Below are positions 4,907-14,814 of a stretch of 14,814 bases of DNA, piece by piece. The notes under the pieces are model-generated. The model was given only the letters and a program-made list of their open reading frames with translations, ran no database searches and had not been told where the DNA came from. This DNA is from Magnetococcales bacterium (lineage in GTDB: Bacteria; Pseudomonadota; Magnetococcia; Magnetococcales; Magnetaquicoccaceae). Position 1 is the stretch's first letter; every line of letters starts with the position of its first letter. A program made the translations under genes and the position numbers. The DNA lies in NCBI GenBank assembly GCA_015228895.1, contig JADGCR010000034.1:1-14814 (forward strand), read 5' to 3'.

Positions 4907-5212
4907 ATGGACGATCTGTTCATTTCAGCCGACCCGGATGTGGTGCAGCGGGAGCGTTTGAAAGCCAAGGAACTCAAACGCACCGCCTGGTGGAAAAACC
5001 GCGTCGGCCAGGGGGTGTGCGCCTATTGCGGCACCCGTCATCACCCCGCCGACCTCACCATGGATCACGTCGTCCCCTTGATTCGTGGTGGCCGCACCTC
5101 CCGATCCAACTGTGTGCCCGCCTGCGCCACCTGCAATCAAGAAAAACGTCATCTCTCCACCACCCAGTGGCACTGTCATCTGGAGGAGAAATTGGGTGGT
5201 GGCTTACGTTAA
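4907..5212 (+). CDS. Small HNH endonuclease family protein
   Basis: This 101-residue single-domain HNH protein starts with the base after the glnE stop codon (TAGATG), so it is probably translationally coupled to glnE. No Shine-Dalgarno sequence is obvious. A basic N-terminal helix (RERLKAKELKRTAWWKN, residues 15-31) leads into a zinc-stabilised HNH fold: Cys38-x2-Cys41, Asp53-His54 (the catalytic His region, TMDHVVP), Asn68, and Cys73-x2-Cys76-Asn77. The pattern RER-K-A-EL---WWK before the first Cys pair is typical of a widespread family of about 100-residue bacterial HNH proteins. HNH domains cut or nick DNA using a single metal ion, but the biological role of this small family is not known to me. 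No restriction, intein or phage context is visible. Confidence 0.85.
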   Translation: MDDLFISADPDVVQRERLKAKELKRTAWWKNRVGQGVCAYCGTRHHPADLTMDHVVPLIRGGRTSRSNCVPACATCNQEKRHLSTTQWHCHLEEKLGGGLR

Positions 5213-5226
5213 AAAATCCTGGCAAG

Positions 5227-6126
5227 TCAACCCCATTGAGCCTGCACCCCCAGGGCGGTCAGCAGCAGCCTGCCCCGCCCATCGGTGGGGGGACACCAGT
5301 AGTGGCTGCCGGTGACAGGACGGGTGAACCGGAACAGGGCGTCCACGATGCCGTCCTCCTGCCCGGTCATGCGGCGCAGCATGCTTTCGAAGGCTTCCGG
5401 GGAACGACCGAAGGCCAGAAACAGCAATCCCTCCCCCATGGCATCGACCCAGGGCATGGAACGGCGCACCATGAAGGCCGGAGGTTCATAGCTCTCCTGG
5501 GCGGTGCGCTTGACATGGGCGGAAGGGGGGGCGTCCTCCAGTTCCCCGTTGTCGCTTTTCCGGCGACCGATGATATGATCCTGCTCCTGCCGGGAAAACC
5601 CCTGAAACCGGCCAAGATCGTGCAACCACTGTTGCACGGCCACAAAACTGCCACCATCCAGCCCCTCCCCGGCACCCTGGACCAGGGCCGCCTCCGCCGC
5701 CGCATCCCCTGTCGGATTCTCGGTGCCGTCCTCGTAGCCGGTGAGATCCAGGCCCTCGGAAAATTTGAAGCAGTCCAGACGTCGCACGCACACGAATGCA
5801 TCGGCCACCAGGGACTCCAGCGCCCGTCCCCGGTGGGTGACGACTCCCGGGTCCCCACCCCGCACCAGCAACCACAGATCCCCCTGGGTGGAGACCACAT
5901 TGCATCCAGGCCCGCTCATGGCGGGAAAAGGGTGCAGATCCGCCACCGGCTTGCCCAGGAGCAGCGACAACGCCGGCCCCAACCCGACAACCACCTCCAC
6001 TCCCAAAATCTCGCGGGCGAGTCGTGCCAGAACCGGAGCGGGGTCCCGGCCCGGTTTCAGCAGAAACTCCAGGCTGCGGGCGTGGGTGGGAAGGTCGTCC
6101 AGAATTCCGGGTTGACTTGTGCGCAT
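5227..6126 (-). CDS. Dye-decolourising (DyP-type) heme peroxidase, YfeX-like
   Basis: This is a 299-residue DyP-family peroxidase, the same length as E. coli YfeX. DyP enzymes use heme and hydrogen peroxide to oxidise aromatic and other substrates. The signature GxxDG is seen as GYEDGTENP (residues 130-138, distal Asp133). The proximal heme ligand is His204 in PSAHVKR and the distal Arg is Arg221 in MVRRSMPW; the 17-residue His-Arg spacing matches that in YfeX. No signal peptide, Tat motif or encapsulin-targeting tail is seen, so the enzyme is probably cytoplasmic. ATG 6126 was chosen because AGAAGGGA lies about 5 bases upstream and the protein then begins like its relatives. The frame stays open upstream to 6216, but that part resembles no family sequence. 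It converges on the HNH gene with a 14-base gap. Its neighbours (oxyR, rubrerythrin) support a peroxide-related role. Confidence 0.92.
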   Translation of the reverse strand: MRTSQPGILDDLPTHARSLEFLLKPGRDPAPVLARLAREILGVEVVVGLGPALSLLLGKPVADLHPFPAMSGPGCNVVSTQGDLWLLVRGGDPGVVTHRGRALESLVADAFVCVRRLDCFKFSEGLDLTGYEDGTENPTGDAAAEAALVQGAGEGLDGGSFVAVQQWLHDLGRFQGFSRQEQDHIIGRRKSDNGELEDAPPSAHVKRTAQESYEPPAFMVRRSMPWVDAMGEGLLFLAFGRSPEAFESMLRRMTGQEDGIVDALFRFTRPVTGSHYWCPPTDGRGRLLLTALGVQAQWG

Positions 6127-6190
6127 GGCAGTCCCTTCTCTTTGGCTTGATGTGGTTGTGGAGAATTCCGGCGGTGTCCGAAACGGTTCG

Positions 6191-6220
6191 ATCATAACGT
6201 ACCCGATTTTTTGCACACAA
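6191..6220 (-). promoter_or_regulatory. Candidate DyP peroxidase promoter
   Basis: On the minus strand TATGAT (6196-6191, 5 of 6 for a -10) follows TTGTGT (6220-6215, 3 of 6 for a -35) after 18 bases. The predicted transcript starts near 6184, about 58 bases before the ATG. No OxyR-like box was found beside it. Confidence 0.3.
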
Positions 6221-6282
6221 GGTTTTTTCCCCCCCGCGGAGCACGGACCCGCCAGTTGTCAAGTCAAGAGTGGGGAGTTGGA

Positions 6283-6678
6283 TCAGAAGGTGGTCCGGGA
6301 GGTGGAACAGGCTTTCAGTGGACCGGAACCGGGCTGGCGGACTTCGACCATGCGGTATTCCAGCATGGTCAGCATGAAGATCAGATCCTGACTGTCCCGT
6401 TTCAGTTCGTCGAGGGCCACTTCCGCTTCCACATAATTGCGGTCATGGTAACAACGGACCAGTTGATCCGCGGTTTCGTGAAAATGTTTGTGACGCTTTT
6501 CCAGGAACGGCATTTCCGGAAACTTGCCGTATTTTTCCATCCCCTCGCTGTAAAACCAGACGCCGAGATCGCAGGCGGTATACGATTGCAGTTGTGGAAT
6601 CGATTCCTTTCTCAACAGCGATTCGAGTTGCAGCAACCACCTCAGATGGATCAATCGCGCCCGGGAGATGTCGATCAT
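6283..6678 (-). CDS. Stand-alone CZB (chemoreceptor zinc-binding) domain protein
   Basis: The 131-residue protein is essentially one CZB domain. The 3His/1Cys zinc site is visible: His11 in HLRWL, Cys36 in ACDLGVWFYSEG, and His63 and His67 in KRHKHFHETAD. CZB domains bind zinc very tightly and usually sit at the C-terminus of chemoreceptors or diguanylate cyclases such as DgcZ. In some of these the zinc-bound Cys is reported to react with hypochlorous acid. Here there is no signalling domain, signal peptide or membrane segment. The last 20 residues are variable and basic. The ATG overlaps the TGA of the upstream transporter gene by 4 bases (ATGA), so the two are translationally coupled and probably act together. 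It may be a cytoplasmic zinc buffer or sensor for the transporter; that role is inferred from position only. Confidence 0.85.
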   Translation of the reverse strand: MIDISRARLIHLRWLLQLESLLRKESIPQLQSYTACDLGVWFYSEGMEKYGKFPEMPFLEKRHKHFHETADQLVRCYHDRNYVEAEVALDELKRDSQDLIFMLTMLEYRMVEVRQPGSGPLKACSTSRTTF

Positions 6679-7622
6679 GGTTGTTTCTCTTCCTCTTTGG
6701 GAAGGTGGGAGAAGAGATGCTCGGACCAGTAATCCATGCCTTCGCGCTTGCGGGTGCTGTGGGGAATGGTGATCACCCACACATGGTGCACCTGAACAAA
6801 CGCGGCCTGCACATTTTTCTTCATGGCGGCGACAATCTCGTGCCCCTCGCGGACGGTCAGCGTTTCGTCGAGAGTGACATGCATGTAGATTTCCCAGGAT
6901 TCCCCCAAACTGCGCCCCCGGATCAGTTTGATATCCTGGATGCCGGAGGTCATCCGGGCCGTGCGCGCGATTTCCGCCAGCACCTCCCTGGAAACGGTCA
7001 CATCCAACAACCCCTTGATGGCATCCCAGGTGATCATGCTCCCGATGCGCAGCACCATGAGCGCCACGAGCAGCGCGGCGATGTGGTCGGCGGCGGGCAT
7101 GCCCAGATTGGACAACACGATGCCCAGCAGGACGAGAACCGAGGAGAAGGCGTCCAGACGGTTGTCCCGGGCGGAGGAGTCCAGGGCGCTGTTGCGGTTT
7201 TGTCTGGCGACACACCGCAGATAACGATGCATCAGTTCGCTGGCCGCCGCGGACAGCAGCACTCCGAGGACGGTAAACAGGGAGGGCGCGGCCCGGACCG
7301 CCCCCAGTTCGCTGAAACTGGTCAGACCGAGGGAGAGCCCACCCAACAGCAAACCCACGCCGATGGTCAACGAGGAGACAAACAGCACCTTGCCGGAGCC
7401 GAACGGAAAGGTCTTGCTGGGAGGCCGTTTGGCGATCTGCACGCTGATGAGGGTCACTCCCTTGGCAAGCGCGTCGCCAAAGGAATAGAGTCCCTGGAGG
7501 ATCAACCCCATGCTGCCTGAAATCCAGCCCAGCAGGGTACGAAAAACGGCCTGGGACACCGAGCAGGCGAGGTCGGTCCAACCCGCTTGCACCACACACC
7601 GGGGACAGTAATCAAATTGCAT
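6675..7622 (-). CDS. Cation diffusion facilitator, magnetosome MamB/MamM-like
   Basis: This 315-residue metal/proton antiporter has the usual CDF layout: about six membrane segments in residues 13-205, then a cytoplasmic domain (about 206-290). It resembles MamB as I recall it: an N-terminal CxxC at residues 6-9, SGSMGLIL, KTFPFGSGKV, ELMHRYLRCVARQNRNSAL, ARDNRLDAFSS, and a cytoplasmic domain opening with RGRSLGES. Predicted transport-site residues are Tyr46 and Asp50 in TM2 (YSFGD) and Asp153 and Asp157 in TM5 (DNRLD). Tyr at the first position is as in MamM. ATG 7622 was preferred to a TTG at 7655 because Cys6, Cys9, Tyr46 and Asp50 then fall on the Mam numbering; AGGA lies 12 bases upstream. 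A tail of about 25 residues (HLFSHLPKEEEKQP) extends the usual end. It is coupled to the CZB gene and divergent from oxyR. The substrate, likely Fe, Mn or Zn, is not readable from sequence. Confidence 0.88.
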   Translation of the reverse strand: MQFDYCPRCVVQAGWTDLACSVSQAVFRTLLGWISGSMGLILQGLYSFGDALAKGVTLISVQIAKRPPSKTFPFGSGKVLFVSSLTIGVGLLLGGLSLGLTSFSELGAVRAAPSLFTVLGVLLSAAASELMHRYLRCVARQNRNSALDSSARDNRLDAFSSVLVLLGIVLSNLGMPAADHIAALLVALMVLRIGSMITWDAIKGLLDVTVSREVLAEIARTARMTSGIQDIKLIRGRSLGESWEIYMHVTLDETLTVREGHEIVAAMKKNVQAAFVQVHHVWVITIPHSTRKREGMDYWSEHLFSHLPKEEEKQP

Positions 7623-7666
7623 GAAATGCGTCCATCCTGTAAGCTGAACCGACAAACACCCCCGTC

Positions 7667-7695
7667 ACTCTCGCCAATCAGCCTCCGGATGTCAA
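7667..7695 (-). promoter_or_regulatory. Candidate promoter of the CDF-CZB operon
   Basis: The minus strand has a perfect TTGACA at 7695-7690. After 17 bases comes a weak -10, GAGAGT, at 7672-7667. A strong -35 with a poor -10 would fit an activated promoter. No clear OxyR box was found in the 124-base divergent region. Confidence 0.35.
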
Positions 7696-7746
7696 GTGCT
7701 GGTGTGGGACCGGGACGCCGATCAATCGGGCCACAGGATGGAATTC

Positions 7747-8730
7747 GTGAACATCAATCAATTGCGCTACGTCCTGGCGGTGGCCAGGGAGAAGAGTTTC
7801 AGTCGCGCCGCCAAGGTGTGCCATGTCAGCCAGCCCTCCCTGAGCGTGGCGGTGAAAAACCTGGAGGACGAACTGGGACGTCCCCTGTTCGAGCGGTACA
7901 AAACCGCCATCAAGGTGACCAGCCGGGGACAACGGGTGCTGGAGCAGATCAAGAAGGCTCTGGAGGAGATGGAGCGGATCCGCAAGATCGCCCGGGACGA
8001 CTCCGACCCCTTGAACGGCGACCTGCGGGTTGGCGCCATTCTGACCATCGGTCCCTACCTGTTCCCCTCCATGATTCCAGCCTTTCACGCCCTCGCGCCC
8101 CGAATGAAACTTCTGCTGGAGGAGAATTTCACCGCCCTCCTCACCCAAAGGCTGAAAAGCGGGGAGATCGATGCCATGTTCATCGCCCTGCCCTTTCAGG
8201 AACACGGGGTGGAGGTGGCTCCCCTGTATGATGAGCCTTTCATGGCCATCGTTCCCGCCGGTCATCCCTGGCAGGAGCGGAATCATCTCTCCGGAGAGGA
8301 TCTGGCCAACGACGACCTGATCCTGTTGGGGGAAGGCAACTGCTTTCGCGACCAGGTCCTGGACATCTGCCCGGATTGCATGCGTCTGGAGGCCACCAAC
8401 GCGGGTCACGCCAGCATCGTCGAAGGGAGTTCCCTGGAGACCATCCGCCATATGGTGGCGACCGGAGTGGGCGTTTCGGTCCTGCCCATGACCTCCATCA
8501 ACAACATCCTGTGTCATGCCCTCACCTGTCCGGCCAAAGAGAATCAACTGATCCGGTTTGTTCCGTTTCGTCCACCGGCGCCCAGTCGAAGGGTCGCCCT
8601 GGTCTGGCGCAGCTCCTTCCCCTGTCCCGCGGTCATGGACACCCTGGCCAGGGCCATACGCGCCAACCCTCCCGCGGGGGTCCGACTGGTCTCCCGGGAG
8701 CGGACGGTCCAGGGGGAACCCGATTCATGA
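7747..8730 (+). CDS. oxyR: LysR-family peroxide sensor and regulator OxyR
   Basis: This 327-residue LysR-type regulator has an N-terminal winged helix-turn-helix (residues 1-60, FSRAAKVCHVSQPSLSVAVKNLEDELG region) and a periplasmic-binding-protein-like effector domain (about 90-305). OxyR is a cytoplasmic peroxide sensor that forms an intramolecular disulfide and activates defence genes. Both redox cysteines are present: Cys199 in GEGNCFRDQ and Cys208 in LDIC, with the 9-residue spacing and the exact numbering of E. coli OxyR. Thr100 of the LTIGPYL loop also keeps its number. This numbering decides the start: GTG 7747, with AGGA 8 bases upstream, rather than ATG 7738 or GTG 7696. Extra cysteines at 211, 256, 261 and 293 are not part of the known switch. 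It is divergent from the CDF gene and followed by rubrerythrin, whose operator begins at the last base of the oxyR stop codon. Confidence 0.93.
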   Translation: MNINQLRYVLAVAREKSFSRAAKVCHVSQPSLSVAVKNLEDELGRPLFERYKTAIKVTSRGQRVLEQIKKALEEMERIRKIARDDSDPLNGDLRVGAILTIGPYLFPSMIPAFHALAPRMKLLLEENFTALLTQRLKSGEIDAMFIALPFQEHGVEVAPLYDEPFMAIVPAGHPWQERNHLSGEDLANDDLILLGEGNCFRDQVLDICPDCMRLEATNAGHASIVEGSSLETIRHMVATGVGVSVLPMTSINNILCHALTCPAKENQLIRFVPFRPPAPSRRVALVWRSSFPCPAVMDTLARAIRANPPAGVRLVSRERTVQGEPDS

Positions 8731-8766
8731 TAGGCTGAGACTATCCATATCATTAAAATATAGTAT
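8730..8766 (+). promoter_or_regulatory. Putative OxyR binding site upstream of rubrerythrin
   Basis: ATAG-N7-CTAT at 8730-8744 matches all eight outer bases of an OxyR half-operator (ATAGntnnnanCTAT). After the expected 7-base spacer, ATTA-N7-GTAT at 8752-8766 is a degenerate second half with 5 of 8 matches. The inner T and A positions are not conserved. Total length is 37 bases, as in the four-contact OxyR consensus. The site abuts a promoter-like -35 and lies between oxyR and a likely target gene. Confidence 0.5.
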
Positions 8767-8795
8767 TGGAATGTTTGATTGTTTTAAGCTATCTT
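8766..8795 (+). promoter_or_regulatory. Candidate rubrerythrin promoter
   Basis: TTGGAA at 8766-8771 (4 of 6) and TATCTT at 8790-8795 (4 of 6) are 18 bases apart. The putative OxyR site ends exactly at this -35, the usual position for OxyR activation. An alternative -10, TATAGT at 8759-8764 with CTGAGA at 8735-8740, would put the OxyR site over the -35 instead. Confidence 0.35.
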
Positions 8796-8884
8796 GTCGC
8801 CATGGAAGCACACACCGCCAACCCTCACGACGCCCTTTTCATGATCACAACCGCTGCATCTTTCAACTCAGGAGAACAAAAGAC

Positions 8885-9385
8885 ATGACCACCAAGGAAA
8901 ATCTCAAGGCGGCTTTCGCCGGTGAAAGCCAGGCCAACCGGAAATACCTCGCCTTCGCCAAAAAAGCCGAACAGGAGGGGTATCCGGTGATCGCCCACCT
9001 GTTCCGCGCCGTGGCCGAGGCGGAGACCATCCATGCCCACACCCATCTGCGCAATCTGGGCGGGGTCAACGACACCCTGGCCAACCTGAAGGAGGCCATG
9101 GCCGGGGAGAATTACGAGGTCAACGAGATGTATCCCGGCATGGTGGCGACCGCGGAGGCGGAAGGGGAAAAACGGGCCGCCCAGGGGATGCGCAACGCCA
9201 TGGAGGTGGAGAAGATTCACAGCGAACTCTACCAGCAGGCCATCACCGCCCTGGAAGGGGGCAAGGATCTGGATCACGAGATGCTGCATCTTTGTGAAGT
9301 GTGCGGCCACACCGTATTCGGTGCAGCCCCGGATAAATGTCCCGTGTGTGGGGCCAAACAGAGCGCGTACCAAAAGGTGGCGTAG
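8885..9385 (+). CDS. Rubrerythrin
   Basis: This 166-residue rubrerythrin is a cytoplasmic non-heme diiron peroxidase that reduces hydrogen peroxide. The diiron ligands of the four-helix bundle are all visible: Glu14 (GESQAN), Glu47 and His50 (ETIH), Glu78 and Glu81 (YEVNEMYPG), Glu109 and His112 (EKIH). The spacing agrees with the Desulfovibrio enzyme. A C-terminal rubredoxin-like knuckle follows, with Cys137-x2-Cys140 (CEVC) and Cys152-x2-Cys155 (CPVC), which would carry the electron-donating iron. The ATG at 8885 has AGGAG 10 bases upstream; longer in-frame starts reach back into oxyR and resemble nothing. It lies 154 bases after oxyR with its own AT-rich promoter region and a putative OxyR operator. 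It is followed by an 11-bp hairpin. Electron donors are not encoded nearby. Confidence 0.96.
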   Translation: MTTKENLKAAFAGESQANRKYLAFAKKAEQEGYPVIAHLFRAVAEAETIHAHTHLRNLGGVNDTLANLKEAMAGENYEVNEMYPGMVATAEAEGEKRAAQGMRNAMEVEKIHSELYQQAITALEGGKDLDHEMLHLCEVCGHTVFGAAPDKCPVCGAKQSAYQKVA

Positions 9386-10489: not shown

Positions 10490-12154
10490 TCAGATTGCCA
10501 GTGAATGGACGCTTTTCTTCCTGGACGCCAGTTGCTCGCGATACAGGGCAACGGACGGCAGGATCATGACGACTTCGGTTTCATCTTCCGGTGGCGAGAA
10601 AATCGTGATCTGGCCACGGTGATCCTTCACGATTCCCTCCACGATGGACAACCCCAACCCCGTCCCCTTGGTTTTTCCCTTGGTGGTGAAGAAAGGATCG
10701 AAGACCTTGCCGAGCGCCGACTCCGGGACGCCGGGGCCATTGTCCTTGACCCAAATCCAGATATGACGGTCGATCAGCCTGCCCTCCACGGTGATCCGTT
10801 TCTCCCGTTGCTCGCGCATCTCCTCCATGGCGTCCAGGGCGTTGTTGAACAGATTGACAAACACCTGCGCCATCTGCTGACGGTCGCAACAGACCATCAG
10901 GGTCCTGGGAATGGTGACCCGCAACGCCGCATTCTCCTTGCGCAGGCGATGCTGCAACAGGTTTTCCGCGTCCCGCACCGGGTCGTCGAGACGACACTCC
11001 ACCCGATCGCTCTCCATGCCACCCTTGGAATAGGTCTTGAGGCTGTCCACGATTTTGGAAATGCGTCCGCTGCCATCCAGAATCCCCGCCATGGTCTTGT
11101 CGATCTCGCCGAGAAAGCGGGCGACGCGACCGCTGGAGTCCTGGTGGGCGTTCTGGAGCAGAATGGGCTGGGCCAGTGTCCAGAACTGCTGCAAGAACTG
11201 CACGTTCCCGGTGATGAACGCATTCGGATTGTTGATTTCGTGGGCGATTCCAGCCGAGAAAGTCCCCAGGGTGGCCAGACGCTCGGCGTGAATCAACTGT
11301 TTGGTGCGGGACTGCACCATCTCTTCAAGTTGTTCCGCATCCTTTTGCATCTTGTCATGGGCCGCGCTCAATTGCCGGGCCATCTGGTTGAAGATCCTCG
11401 CCATCTGGCCCAGTTCATCCTTGCCGACCACCGGGAGATGGGAGTCCAGATGTCCCTCCGCCACATGCAACATGGCGCGCATCAGTCCGGTGATGGGCCG
11501 GACCAGACTGCCGGTCAGCAGCAAGGCCATTCCGATCATCAGGACGAGCAGGACGCAGGCCATGACCAGCGCCAGCCAGGTCCGATCCTGACCGAAGTGC
11601 TGCATCTCCACCGAGGCTTTCTGCATGTCCATTCTGACCCGACCCACATGATACTCCACCAGAAATTCAATGGCCTGTTTCGCTTCTTCCATCTTTTCCA
11701 ACGCTTCCCTGGAGTGCGCGGCGCTTTCGTGGTTCTTCCAGGCATCGACCGTGGAGACAAAAGCCTTGTCGTAGTCATGGATGTGCTGCAGGATTCCCCT
11801 TGGGGCTTTCAGATCCTCCCCGTTCCCGGAACGCCTTTCCAGGGCGGTGAGCCGCTCCAGTTTGCCCAGAAAATCCTTGAGGTGATGCTGGTGGTCTTTC
11901 ACCAGGGCTTCGTTGGGCGCGATGCGAAAATTGTATTCCACTTCCCGCATCAACGAGAGGGCATGGGATAGCTGATAACCCAGCGTAAAGCGTGTGATAT
12001 CTTCATTGATAAAATCCTGGTAGTCATCAACGACCTGTTTCATGCTGAAATGGTAGACAAAGACGATCCCGAAAAAAAAACTGGCGATCACCACAAATCC
12101 AAAAGCGAATTTTTGCCAAATCAACAAACGGTTGAACAGACTCATCGATGTCAT
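10490..12154 (-). CDS. Membrane sensor histidine kinase (HAMP, NtrB-like core)
   Basis: A 554-residue kinase. It has TM1 at about residues 15-36, a helical periplasmic domain of about 150 residues (four-helix-bundle type, rich in His and charged residues), TM2 at about 192-218, HAMP (219-270) and a coiled linker. The dimerisation box AGIAHEINNP follows with phospho-acceptor His305. The ATP-binding domain has the N box NLFNNALDAM (434-443), G1 DNGPGVP (471-477), F box FDPFFTTKGK (486-495) and G2 GTGLGLS (497-503). It should autophosphorylate and pass phosphate to a receiver, plausibly the response regulator 147 bases upstream. Start: ATG 12154 has GGGA 4 bases upstream and gives a short N-terminus before TM1. 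ATG 12220 is possible, but an extended -10 sequence lies just inside it. The ligand is unknown. Confidence 0.92.
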   Translation of the reverse strand: MTSMSLFNRLLIWQKFAFGFVVIASFFFGIVFVYHFSMKQVVDDYQDFINEDITRFTLGYQLSHALSLMREVEYNFRIAPNEALVKDHQHHLKDFLGKLERLTALERRSGNGEDLKAPRGILQHIHDYDKAFVSTVDAWKNHESAAHSREALEKMEEAKQAIEFLVEYHVGRVRMDMQKASVEMQHFGQDRTWLALVMACVLLVLMIGMALLLTGSLVRPITGLMRAMLHVAEGHLDSHLPVVGKDELGQMARIFNQMARQLSAAHDKMQKDAEQLEEMVQSRTKQLIHAERLATLGTFSAGIAHEINNPNAFITGNVQFLQQFWTLAQPILLQNAHQDSSGRVARFLGEIDKTMAGILDGSGRISKIVDSLKTYSKGGMESDRVECRLDDPVRDAENLLQHRLRKENAALRVTIPRTLMVCCDRQQMAQVFVNLFNNALDAMEEMREQREKRITVEGRLIDRHIWIWVKDNGPGVPESALGKVFDPFFTTKGKTKGTGLGLSIVEGIVKDHRGQITIFSPPEDETEVVMILPSVALYREQLASRKKSVHSLAI

Positions 12155-12203
12155 CCATTCCCAGGGAAAGTCGAGATCGCCCAAGGAGATCAGGCGGGTG
12201 CCA

Positions 12204-12212
12204 ATTCTAGCA
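12204..12212 (-). promoter_or_regulatory. Extended -10 upstream of the second kinase
   Basis: The minus strand reads TGC-TAGAAT, an extended -10 (TGn plus 5 of 6 bases of TATAAT) with no good -35. It would start transcription near 12197, giving a leader of about 43 bases to ATG 12154, so the kinase may have its own promoter besides read-through from the upstream pair. Confidence 0.35.
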
Positions 12213-12301
12213 TACCCCATCCTGCGACGCTACCACCCCCCTGTCCGTTCCATGGTCGGGCGCGTTCCTCTCGCGGCCTGTATCCAACCGTTGACTGGAT
12301 T

Positions 12302-12943
12302 TCAATGACCCAATGCCCGCAACAGATTGAAGGCGTTGCTGCCCAGCGACGTGAGGGCGTAGAGCTTGTCCTCCGCCTGACGAATCAGTCCCGCCTCCCG
12401 GAGGGTGCGCAGATGAAACAGGGTCTTGGTGTGATCCTCGATGTACAGGGCCGCGCTGATGTCGGTCATGCGCAGGCAGTTGGACTGCCCCAGCACCTCG
12501 ATGATGCGCCTGCGAATGGGATTGGCCAGGGACGCCAGGGTCTGATCCAGGTCACGGGACTGGATCTGCATTTCGAAACGTCTCTCCTCCAGGGAACGGC
12601 GCACCACGGCCACCAACTCCTCGAAACGGAACGGCTTGGAGAGATAATCCGACGCCCCCTTGCGAATCGCCTGCACCGCCGTGTTGACCGTGGCGAAAGC
12701 GGTCAACATGATGAACTTGGTTGCACTGCTCGTCTTGCGCATCTCCTGCAAGGTTTCGATGCCATCCAGACCGGGCATGATCAGATCCAGCAGCACCACG
12801 TCGAAACGTTCCCCGGCCAATAGTCGCAACCCCTCCAGTCCCGATGGGGCCGTGGTTACCCGAAACCCCTCATGGCTCAGCAGAACGGCCAGGTTCTCCC
12901 GCAATTCGGCCTCGTCGTCCACGATGAGAATGCTCTGATTCAT
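12302..12943 (-). CDS. Response regulator with ArsR-like winged-helix output domain
   Basis: A 213-residue regulator. The receiver domain (residues 1-120) has the acidic pair Asp9-Asp10, phospho-acceptor Asp53 (LLDLIMPGLDG), Thr81 (LTAFAT) and Lys103 (SKPF), so it should be fully functional. The output domain (about 130-213) is not of the OmpR, NarL or NtrC type. It reads like an ArsR-family winged helix: LANPIRRRIIEVLG, then LRMTDISAALYI, HTKTLFHLRTLREAGLI as the recognition region, and KLYALTSLGSNAFNLL as the wing and last helix. It probably binds DNA as a dimer in a phosphorylation-dependent way. No ArsR metal-binding ELCVCDL-type motif is present; Cys156 is alone. GGGAG lies 10 bases before the ATG. 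It starts 18 bases after the upstream kinase stop, so the two are cotranscribed and likely a cognate pair. Confidence 0.9.
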   Translation of the reverse strand: MNQSILIVDDEAELRENLAVLLSHEGFRVTTAPSGLEGLRLLAGERFDVVLLDLIMPGLDGIETLQEMRKTSSATKFIMLTAFATVNTAVQAIRKGASDYLSKPFRFEELVAVVRRSLEERRFEMQIQSRDLDQTLASLANPIRRRIIEVLGQSNCLRMTDISAALYIEDHTKTLFHLRTLREAGLIRQAEDKLYALTSLGSNAFNLLRALGH

Positions 12944-12961
12944 CGATGCCCCACTCCCGCG

Positions 12962-14814
12962 TTATTGTGGCGCCAGGGGCAGGCGCAGCGTGGCCAGCAC
13001 GCCACCCCCCTCCCCGTTGACCACCTCCAGGGTGCCGCCATGTTGCCGCACGATACTGTAACAGATGGGCAACCCCAACCCCACACCGATACCAGACTTC
13101 TTGGTGGTGAAAAAGGGATCGAAAATCTTCCCGTCCGCCTCCGGGGCCAGTCCCGGTCCCCGATCTCGCACCCGCGCCACCAGGAAACCGCGTTCGCAAC
13201 CGGCGCTCACCACCACCTCCCCACCCGCCCGGGTGGCGTCCAGGGCATTTTGCAGCAGATTGCGCATCACCTGACCAATCTTCACCCGGTCTCCCCACAT
13301 GCGCAACGTCTCCTCCATCTCCAGGGTGATATCGACAGGACCACCATCGGCCTGCACCAGTTCCAGCACCTCGTTCAACTCATCCCGGAGATTGAAATAG
13401 GCGCACTCCGGCTGTCCGGTCCAGGAGTACTCCAACATCTGCCGCGCCACCCGCGTGGCCCGCTCTATGTTGCTTTCCACCTGATTCAAACGGTGGGTCA
13501 CGGCCGGATCCTGGGAGTGGGGCGGCAACAACAGACGCACGTTCTGCAACCCCATGGCGGCGGTGGAGAGGGGATTGTTGATTTCGTGCGCCACCCGCAC
13601 CGCGAATTGACCGATACTCGACATCTTTTCCGATACCAGCAGCATGCGCCGCAATTCGGCGCGCTCCCGCAACGCCATGGCCAGATGTTTCATGGCCGCC
13701 AACAACCGGTCACTGCCGGAACGCTCCTCCACCGTGACCGACAGATCATCCCGCGCCAGACGTTGCGCCATGTCCGCCACCCGGCTTTCCGCATCCACCA
13801 GTCGTCTCATCGCCTCCATCAGTTGACCGAATTCGTCCCGAATCCCCGCCGGCGCCATGATCGCCTCCTCCTCCAGATCCCCCCTGGCCACCGCCTCCAC
13901 GGTACGGATCGCCCGCGTCAACCCCCGGTTCACGTCCCGTGAAATCCGCAAGGCGATGATGGTCCCGACGACGATGCTCAGACACAGCATGGCCGACAGC
14001 ACGGCGAACGCAATCCGGTAATCCCGGTTGGATTGCCGTCGGGCCTCGTTCATCCGCGCTTCGCTGCTGGCGGAAAAGGCAAGCAGCAGATCCCGCAACT
14101 GCAACAATACCGGTCGTCCCTGCTCCTGGGAGAGCCGGATGGCCTTGTGATTGCCGTTTTCCAGCGTCAGCGAGCGCACCTGACGGGAAATTTCCAGATA
14201 GCTCTTGAGATGCGCGTCAAACTCTGCCAGCAGCGCCTCCCCCCGTTCCCCGGTCAACCAGCGTCCAAGCTGCTCCCGATGGCGGTTCAACCGTTCTCCG
14301 TCGCGTTCCATCGCCTGCGCGTCCCTGACCATTTTGTTTTCGTCCGTGGTCAGGATCATGTGGATTTCATCCCTCTGGATGGTCATCAGCAACAGTTGCA
14401 TTTCGCGAATGAGGGTGTCCGGATAGGCGTTTCCTGCCGCGGACAGTCCCTGCTCCAGGGTCTCCTGCGCCAACAGCATGGCCTGACGCCCGGCGTTCTC
14501 CGACAACCCGGTGGCGCGCACATTGGAATTGAGCATGCCCAGACGTTGCACCTCCCGGTCAATGGCGATCAATGAGCCGATGGTGGCGTCGATCCGCCCG
14601 AGGATCTCCTGTTCCTGCCCGCTGGTGGACAACTCCCGCAAGCGCTCCAAGGCCCGTTGCAGTTGATCGTGCGCCTGGGTGATCTCCCGGGCGAACCGGA
14701 GCATATCCCGCGGATTGTCCGACAGGATGATGTTGCGCTCCCCACGGGTGATCTCCAGGACGCTCTGATCCAGCAGGCTGGCCATGCGCACCTTTTCCAC
14801 ATCGTGCAGCACCA
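12962..14814 (-). CDS. Membrane sensor histidine kinase with duplicated helical sensor (N-terminus beyond right edge)
   Basis: The frame is open through the right edge. 616 residues are visible when counted from the codon at 14812; the true start and first membrane segment lie outside. Residues about 14-252 form a helical extracytoplasmic region of the 4HB_MCP type present as two tandem copies (offset 124 residues). TM2 is at about 267-290, followed by HAMP (about 291-345) and a second linker helix region. The kinase core has MSSIGQFAVRVAHEINNPL with phospho-acceptor His409, N box NLLQNALDAT (518-527), G1 DRGPGL (550-555), F box FDPFFTTKKSG (564-574) and G2 GVGLGLP (576-582). This is an NtrB-like orthodox kinase. 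It is followed after 18 bases by its probable partner regulator. The ligand is unknown. Confidence 0.93.
   Translation of the reverse strand, partial: VLHDVEKVRMASLLDQSVLEITRGERNIILSDNPRDMLRFAREITQAHDQLQRALERLRELSTSGQEQEILGRIDATIGSLIAIDREVQRLGMLNSNVRATGLSENAGRQAMLLAQETLEQGLSAAGNAYPDTLIREMQLLLMTIQRDEIHMILTTDENKMVRDAQAMERDGERLNRHREQLGRWLTGERGEALLAEFDAHLKSYLEISRQVRSLTLENGNHKAIRLSQEQGRPVLLQLRDLLLAFSASSEARMNEARRQSNRDYRIAFAVLSAMLCLSIVVGTIIALRISRDVNRGLTRAIRTVEAVARGDLEEEAIMAPAGIRDEFGQLMEAMRRLVDAESRVADMAQRLARDDLSVTVEERSGSDRLLAAMKHLAMALRERAELRRMLLVSEKMSSIGQFAVRVAHEINNPLSTAAMGLQNVRLLLPPHSQDPAVTHRLNQVESNIERATRVARQMLEYSWTGQPECAYFNLRDELNEVLELVQADGGPVDITLEMEETLRMWGDRVKIGQVMRNLLQNALDATRAGGEVVVSAGCERGFLVARVRDRGPGLAPEADGKIFDPFFTTKKSGIGVGLGLPICYSIVRQHGGTLEVVNGEGGGVLATLRLPLAPQ

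Follow-up and report, generated by a model that had tools for sequence, protein, structure and literature searches.

Recurrent pairing of a gene for a CDF transporter of the wider MamV group with a gene for a CZB-only protein

A gene pair encoding a CDF transporter, on a branch of the MamV group, and a CZB-only protein is present in the window (the whole stretch of 14,814 nucleotides of Magnetococcales DNA analysed here) and recurs in other genomes. The best explanation is that the two genes are a co-inherited unit of magnetotactic bacteria. As a tentative reading of this unit, the CZB protein may be a zinc- or redox-responsive subunit that would dock on the CDF transporter and gate it.

The gene pair and its recurrence

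The features of the gene pair are as follows:

6283..6678, minus strand: CZB-only protein, 131 aa (Pfam CZB; AF2 predicted four-helix bundle)
6349..6438, minus strand: CZB residues 81-110 (helix 4), the most conserved stretch of paired CZB proteins by entropy
6478..6492, minus strand: predicted zinc ligands His63 and His67 (HKHFH), invariant in the paired-type alignment and 19 CZB units
6571..6573, minus strand: predicted zinc ligand and candidate redox residue Cys36, invariant in the paired-type alignment and 19 CZB units
6646..6648, minus strand: predicted zinc ligand His11, aligned in 19 of 19 CZB units
6675..6678, minus strand: ATGA overlap of CDF stop and CZB start, from the sequence
6675..7622, minus strand: CDF transporter, CZB-linked branch of the MamV-wide group, 315 aa from ATG (Pfam, NCBIfam, trees)
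6711..6731, minus strand: tail motif YWxxHLF, residues 298-304, candidate CZB docking motif, branch-specific in the alignment
7152..7166, minus strand: predicted transport site A, TM5 half, D153 to D157 (DNRLD), from alignment columns
7473..7487, minus strand: predicted transport site A, TM2 half, Y46 to D50, from alignment columns

The first-pass annotation had described a magnetosome-type CDF transporter that shares several motifs with MamB and MamM and overlaps by four bases a protein that is nothing but a CZB domain. The overlap is present (ATGA, 6678-6675), as are all of the named motifs (C6xxC9, R136-C137, PFGSGK and RGRSLGE). Both Pfam domains of the transporter score over their cut-offs (Cation_efflux, 122.5 bits; ZT_dimer, 38.7 bits), and an alternative TTG start at 7655 would lengthen it by 11 aa. 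The description of its partner is nearly right: the Pfam CZB match (43.5 bits, cut-off 29.4) spans residues 11-74, but a fourth predicted helix (residues 82-114) extends beyond it.

Protein database searches added 28 CZB proteins and 21 close CDFs (53-67% identity) to those of the window. A scan of contigs from 84,980 species with the CZB alignment, biased to the paired type by its two peptide patterns drawn from paired CZB proteins, found 11 loci in nine genomes, ten of which have a CDF gene directly upstream of the CZB gene on the same strand; the eleventh (L010, in G008) begins at a contig start. Four more pair loci were read in G038, G014, G075 and G092. The two-part unit that had been proposed from the window alone is therefore recurrent, with a same-strand CDF gene directly upstream of the CZB gene in all 14 other readable places, in 12 genomes. 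G008 also has a CDF of the CZB-linked branch that is cut by the end of another contig (L182), so that L010, the fifteenth place, looks like one half of a pair split by a contig break. Gaps between the two genes range from -101 to +76 bp over the readable places: adjacency on one strand is conserved, and the 4-bp overlap is not. Translational overlap as a rule was rejected, only the window, L001 and (over a greater length) L074 having overlapping genes.

Eight of the nine scan genomes possess a match over the MamB cut-off; in G004 the matching gene is a canonical mamV next to mamU and mamT. Apart from its CZB-linked CDF, G005 has only a MamM-like match (133 bits).

Phylogeny, transport site and tail of the CDF transporter

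The main tree contained 70 rows (24 CZB-linked CDFs, 10 MamV, 11 MamB, 11 MamM, 13 other CDFs and one unassigned), sequences more than 95% alike and six distant database CDFs having been left out. In this tree, whose bootstrap was still short of convergence (correlation 0.965), the CZB-linked CDFs are a single clade (98/94) that groups with MamV (100/100), and with MamB added (99/95); MamB, MamM, MamV and the CZB-linked CDFs are together at 97/93. The placement of the CDF inside the Mam clade was thus upheld by the tree, and the label of magnetosome-type transporter stands in that sense, but the protein is neither a MamB nor a MamM, having its own branch of the MamV-wide group. Neither result that the first-pass annotation had said would weaken its claim, a CDF outside the Mam clade or a pair absent from all relatives, was obtained. 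As a check, 27 further Mam-type CDFs, mostly of Magnetococcales, were added: 25 fall in the MamV-wide group and lack the tail, L182 falls in the CZB-linked branch, and L186 falls outside. In this quick tree, SH-aLRT values were 87 for the CZB-linked branch including the truncated L182 and 100 for the MamV-wide group (60 rows). Placement as a plain sister of canonical MamV was dropped because the added CDFs put the branch inside the wider MamV group.

CDFs of the MamV group with neither CZB partner nor tail are common in Magnetococcales genomes (L162-L181, L183-L185, L118 and L120), a range wider than the one in print. Among Mam-type CDFs outside the CZB-linked branch, an adjacent CZB gene is absent from 11 of 11 readable loci of L048-L060 (several from near-identical strains; two others are cut off on that side), from L086, L087 and L104, and from all 20 further loci whose downstream side could be read for at least 1.2 kb. 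At L118 and L120, a tandem CZB gene is located about 5 kb from the CDF gene on the other strand. At L104 (911-2978, in G009), a MamV-type CDF gene is directly behind a mamK-like gene.

Among the NCBIfam models, MamV (NF040994) fits the window CDF best, at 412.4 bits versus 269.9 for MamB and 171.5 for MamM; these scores are under the curated cut-offs of 500 bits for MamV and 350 bits each for MamB and MamM. Seven other CZB-linked CDFs pass the MamV cut-off (604.9-623.3 bits).

Along with the CZB partner and the tail, a Y-D-D-D transport site without histidine sets the CZB-linked branch apart. Position 46 is tyrosine in CZB-linked CDFs (23 of 23 filled rows) and MamM, and histidine in MamB and nine of the ten MamV; position 153 is aspartate in MamV, MamB and 21 of the 24 CZB-linked CDFs (glutamate in the other three), and histidine in MamM and 12 of 13 other CDFs. 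No filled row departs from D50, and D157 is present in 22 of 24 CZB-linked CDFs (asparagine in two). As predicted from these alignment columns, site A of the branch is a MamM-like TM2 half joined to a MamB-like TM5 half, free of histidine. A histidine-free transport site counts against zinc as the ion, and zinc is not favoured here because site A lacks the TM5 histidine of MamM and most other CDFs compared. The CxxC motif is not universal in the branch (of 21 filled rows, 15 have C6 and 19 have C9). The YWxxHLF tail is found in 23 of 24 CZB-linked representatives versus none of 72 other CDFs (46, plus 26 further Mam-type CDFs, a count that leaves out L182 as cut before the tail); the only representative without it, L015, is the earliest branch of the CZB-linked CDFs. 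The structure model of the CDF is mediocre (pLDDT 75.7), with values below 50 for residues 292-315, which hold the tail.

The CZB protein and a possible mechanism

The 3His/1Cys ligands of the CZB domain (His11, Cys36, His63 and His67) are intact in the window protein and common to 19 of 19 units from paired, single and tandem proteins, and the window protein may bind zinc. Its AF2 model is a four-helix bundle (mean pLDDT 86.2, pTM 0.77), for which the best Foldseek match was the MID domain of DosC (TM 0.70, E 0.036); no match reached E ≤0.001, and no CZB structure was named among the 50 matches listed. Mean entropy in 29 paired-type CZB proteins is 0.35 bits in helix 4, compared with 1.00 in residues 1-35 and 0.93 in residues 36-80. 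The helix-4 stretch VEAEVALDELKR of the paired type is absent from the tandem type. Judging from sequence conservation, helix 4 may be the contact surface for the CDF tail. Three CZB-only relatives (P0002, P0005 and P0006) are called 'putative lipoprotein' in a public source, a name without support here.

In the mechanism proposed, the CDF would carry a divalent metal out of the cytosol; Fe2+ and Mn2+ are the likeliest, ahead of Zn2+. The CZB protein would be its cytosolic regulatory partner, with zinc held by the four ligands, and would use helix 4, which hardly varies, to dock on the YWxxHLF tail at the C-terminus of the CDF. If zinc were lost or Cys36 oxidized, the CZB bundle would change and so switch transport, by which metal export would be tied to the zinc or redox state of the cytosol. 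The tail and helix 4 could instead be conserved for separate reasons, which would count against docking.

The same adjacency and the same tail would also suit a metallochaperone or buffer that captures metal or passes it to the CDF without gating it, and seven of the 48 tandem loci have a CZB-only gene by genes for Fe2+ import, where a carrier linking uptake to efflux might be expected. This alternative is unlikely: CZB domains studied to date hold zinc with femtomolar affinity and give it up upon oxidation by HOCl, according to PMC8262984 and PMC13370339, and such affinity fits a sensor better than a carrier; hand-over of zinc is improbable because the CDF site lacks the histidine of most CDFs compared.

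Neighbouring genes in the window

Downstream of the CZB gene is a DyP peroxidase gene (156 bp to its ATG), and divergent from the CDF gene is an OxyR-like gene with a rubrerythrin gene beyond it. These oxidative-stress neighbours fit the earlier suggestion that oxidants may be read through Cys36. They would also favour the idea that the CDF and the CZB protein serve metal or oxidant stress in parallel, without contact, and travel as a small stress cassette. This idea is given no better chance than the carrier, as OxyR, DyP and rubrerythrin were not found at other pair loci, yet the CDF and CZB genes stay together there, and the tail and helix-4 sequences are specific to the pair. An HNH gene stays behind glnE in eight of eight relatives with a readable flank, and the DyP-CZB-CDF-OxyR-rubrerythrin block (window 4907-9385) is behind these two genes in none of the eight, which suggests a lineage-specific insertion or rearrangement. 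GlnE of the window is 69-75% identical to its counterpart in 9 of the 42 matching Magnetococcales genomes (48 searched) and 49-58% identical to the rest, which places the window in this order.

A conserved oxidative-stress neighbourhood was rejected: loci L001-L105, whose flanks are limited, contain no match to OxyR, DyP or rubrerythrin. A DyP match is present in 10 of 48 Magnetococcales genomes, and G038 alone has both DyP and the pair, on different contigs. Control of the pair by OxyR was also rejected, the CDF-oxyR gap matching 9 of 20 positions of the OxyR binding consensus. Two overlapping 13/20 matches to this consensus, the best in the window, precede the rubrerythrin gene (8730-8792). 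The OxyR-like LysR regulator (7738-8730) scores 216 bits against the OxyR model (cut-off 329) and has two cysteines in GNCFRDQVLDIC, which we take to resemble the OxyR redox pair. Elsewhere in the window (10490-14812), a response regulator gene is located between two histidine kinase genes; the end of this regulator weakly matches an ArsR-like HTH.

Magnetosome gene context and published genetics

The pair is close to magnetosome genes in some genomes. G001 (L001) has the order mamI-mamE-mamA-mamQ-CDF-CZB-tandem CZB, all on one strand (mam names assigned through BLAST against a reference labelled according to gene order); in UT-4 (L003), the distance from the end of the CZB gene is 3.8 kb to mamU and 5.9 kb to mamB; and in G075, possibly Magnetospirillum gryphiswaldense MSR-1, the pair is between a mamXY-type cluster and mamU, with the CZB gene about 12 kb from mamU. 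A MamR-family gene is next after the CZB gene in 7 of 14 pair loci (the one scanned scored 132 bits, cut-off 100). A FieF-like CDF gene is convergent with CDF-CZB-MamR at L084 (10924-11949), L083 (11576-12535) and L005 (9553-10611).

That the pair is a dispensable magnetosome accessory, tuning the iron loading of magnetosomes under non-laboratory conditions, would agree with the gene order of G001, the distances to mamU and the MamR-family genes, but is the least probable of the alternatives, given that the Magnetococcales pair loci read (window, L009, L011 and L073) have no adjoining mam gene and that deletions in the MSR-1 region kept wild-type magnetosomes. The window holds no mam gene other than the CDF gene itself, which is not behind mamU in a mamAB operon.

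Deletion dA4 of MSR-1 (mgr4106-mgr4146) left wild-type magnetosomes, according to PMC3197154. If G075 is MSR-1, dA4 probably removed the CDF-CZB pair; a needed magnetosome role is counted against because MSR-1 deletions that possibly cover the pair left normal magnetosomes. The predicted functions listed for the MSR-1 island in PMC3197154 name no cation transporter, which makes it less likely that the island sequence of that paper contains the pair. Large MSR-1 deletions into which five operons were put back had magnetosomes restored, and under H2O2 restored dM13 grew about 70% below wild type and restored dM04 about 12% below (PMC7908775). An oxidant role of the removed genes would be compatible with this loss of growth but is not demonstrated by it.

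CZB-only proteins in magnetotactic bacteria

CZB-only proteins (at least 49 bits, in frames of less than 400 aa) are encoded by 38 of 48 Magnetococcales genomes, and 44 of the 48 have a match over the MamB cut-off. In 16 genomes, one contig carries both MamB and a tandem CZB gene, 8.8-17.9 kb apart; in G045 (possibly Magnetococcus marinus MC-1), G046 and G047, a single CZB copy is 18.6-27.8 kb from MamB, near mamH; and in the other 19 CZB-only genomes the CZB gene is on a contig without a MamB match, with other mam-like genes within 8 kb in four (G014, G021, G027 and G049). G045 (one contig) and G047 also hold a tandem CZB gene far from MamB, which counts against a link to the magnetosome region, and a second CZB protein of G014 (131 bits, L075), encoded in a mam region with no CDF gene beside it, limits the pairing reading. 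At L076 (9947-10363, in G045), one small ORF is between the single CZB gene and mamH.

By locus, 23 of 48 tandem-CZB loci are within about 12 kb of a mam-type gene, four of five unpaired single CZB loci are near mam genes, and seven of 48 tandem-CZB loci (L078, L081, L110, L112, L127, L151 and L158) are at most 0.7 kb from a feoA or feoB match, with L152 at 2.4 kb. At L151 (5602-9599, in G075), the tandem CZB gene is divergent from feoAB in the magnetosome region; L158 has the same neighbours, as does L152, where they are 2.4 kb apart. At L072 (268-2171, in G008), a tandem CZB gene is directly behind a FieF-like CDF gene on the same strand, a second and separate CDF-CZB neighbourhood; this CDF, at 289 bits, falls short of the FieF cut-off of 420.

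In the family of G003, CZB-only proteins (at least 50 bits) are encoded by 13 of 21 genomes with a Mam-type CDF (at least 200 bits; G005 counted through its CZB-linked CDF) versus none of 34 others (Fisher p 1.4e-7, kinship ignored). Among 37 tandem-CZB relatives in the protein database, three of the four with organism names are from magnetotactic species. In the open-licence literature, no paper was found that links CZB or chemoreceptor zinc-binding domains with magnetosomes or magnetotactic bacteria, and none of the 16 with 'CZB domain' has a magnetotactic title.

CZB-only proteins, paired and tandem, might together constitute an unrecognised zinc- and redox-sensing layer of magnetotactic iron handling, in which one type would gate MamV-like CDFs and others would work alongside feoAB or a FieF-like CDF; the zinc occupancy of the module they have in common would in this way match iron uptake and efflux to the redox state of the cytosol. 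This broader proposal is more doubtful than gating of the paired CDF.

Comparison with known systems

The pair bears on the question of how magnetotactic bacteria sustain large iron fluxes without oxidative damage: a Mam-clade transporter with a fixed zinc- or redox-sensing partner, perhaps present in the tractable MSR-1, would make this question directly testable. If the proposed mechanism is true, lone CZB proteins gain their first function.

Among known CDFs, the closest is MamV of the AMB-1 type mamAB operon, which forms one group with the CZB-linked CDFs (100/100) and has in common with the window CDF C137, D50, D153, D157, RGR and E241. MamV differs in having H46 (nine of ten representatives), no YWxxHLF tail and, where readable, no adjacent CZB gene, and its gene sits behind mamU, unlike that of the window CDF. 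Deletion of mamV in AMB-1, in work of 2010 by Murat, reportedly had little effect. MamV is 'of unknown function' in PMC10470508. A 2014 paper (PMC3934378), which compared MC-1 and IT-1 only, thought MamV a recent addition in Magnetospirillum; the MamV group extends beyond Magnetospirillum.

MamB and MamM resemble the window CDF as Mam-clade CDFs with CxxC and C137, but are placed elsewhere in the tree, lack the tail and have histidine in site A (H153 in MamM, H46 in MamB). FieF/YiiP belongs to the CDF family and is the best PDB sequence match of the window CDF (E 2.7e-15). It has a histidine in the TM5 half of site A, where the window CDF has D153; the non-Mam CDFs compared have H153 in 12 of 13, lack C137 and fall outside the Mam clade.

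'CZB only' proteins made up 27.1% of the sequences surveyed in PMC8262984, some of them perhaps incomplete, with no function given in the part of that survey available. The CZB domains of DgcZ and TlpD have the same 3His/1Cys ligands, and that of DgcZ (3T9O) is a weak sequence match to the window protein (E 0.0035). Those domains sit in a cyclase or a chemoreceptor, whereas the CZB protein of the window stands alone by a transporter.
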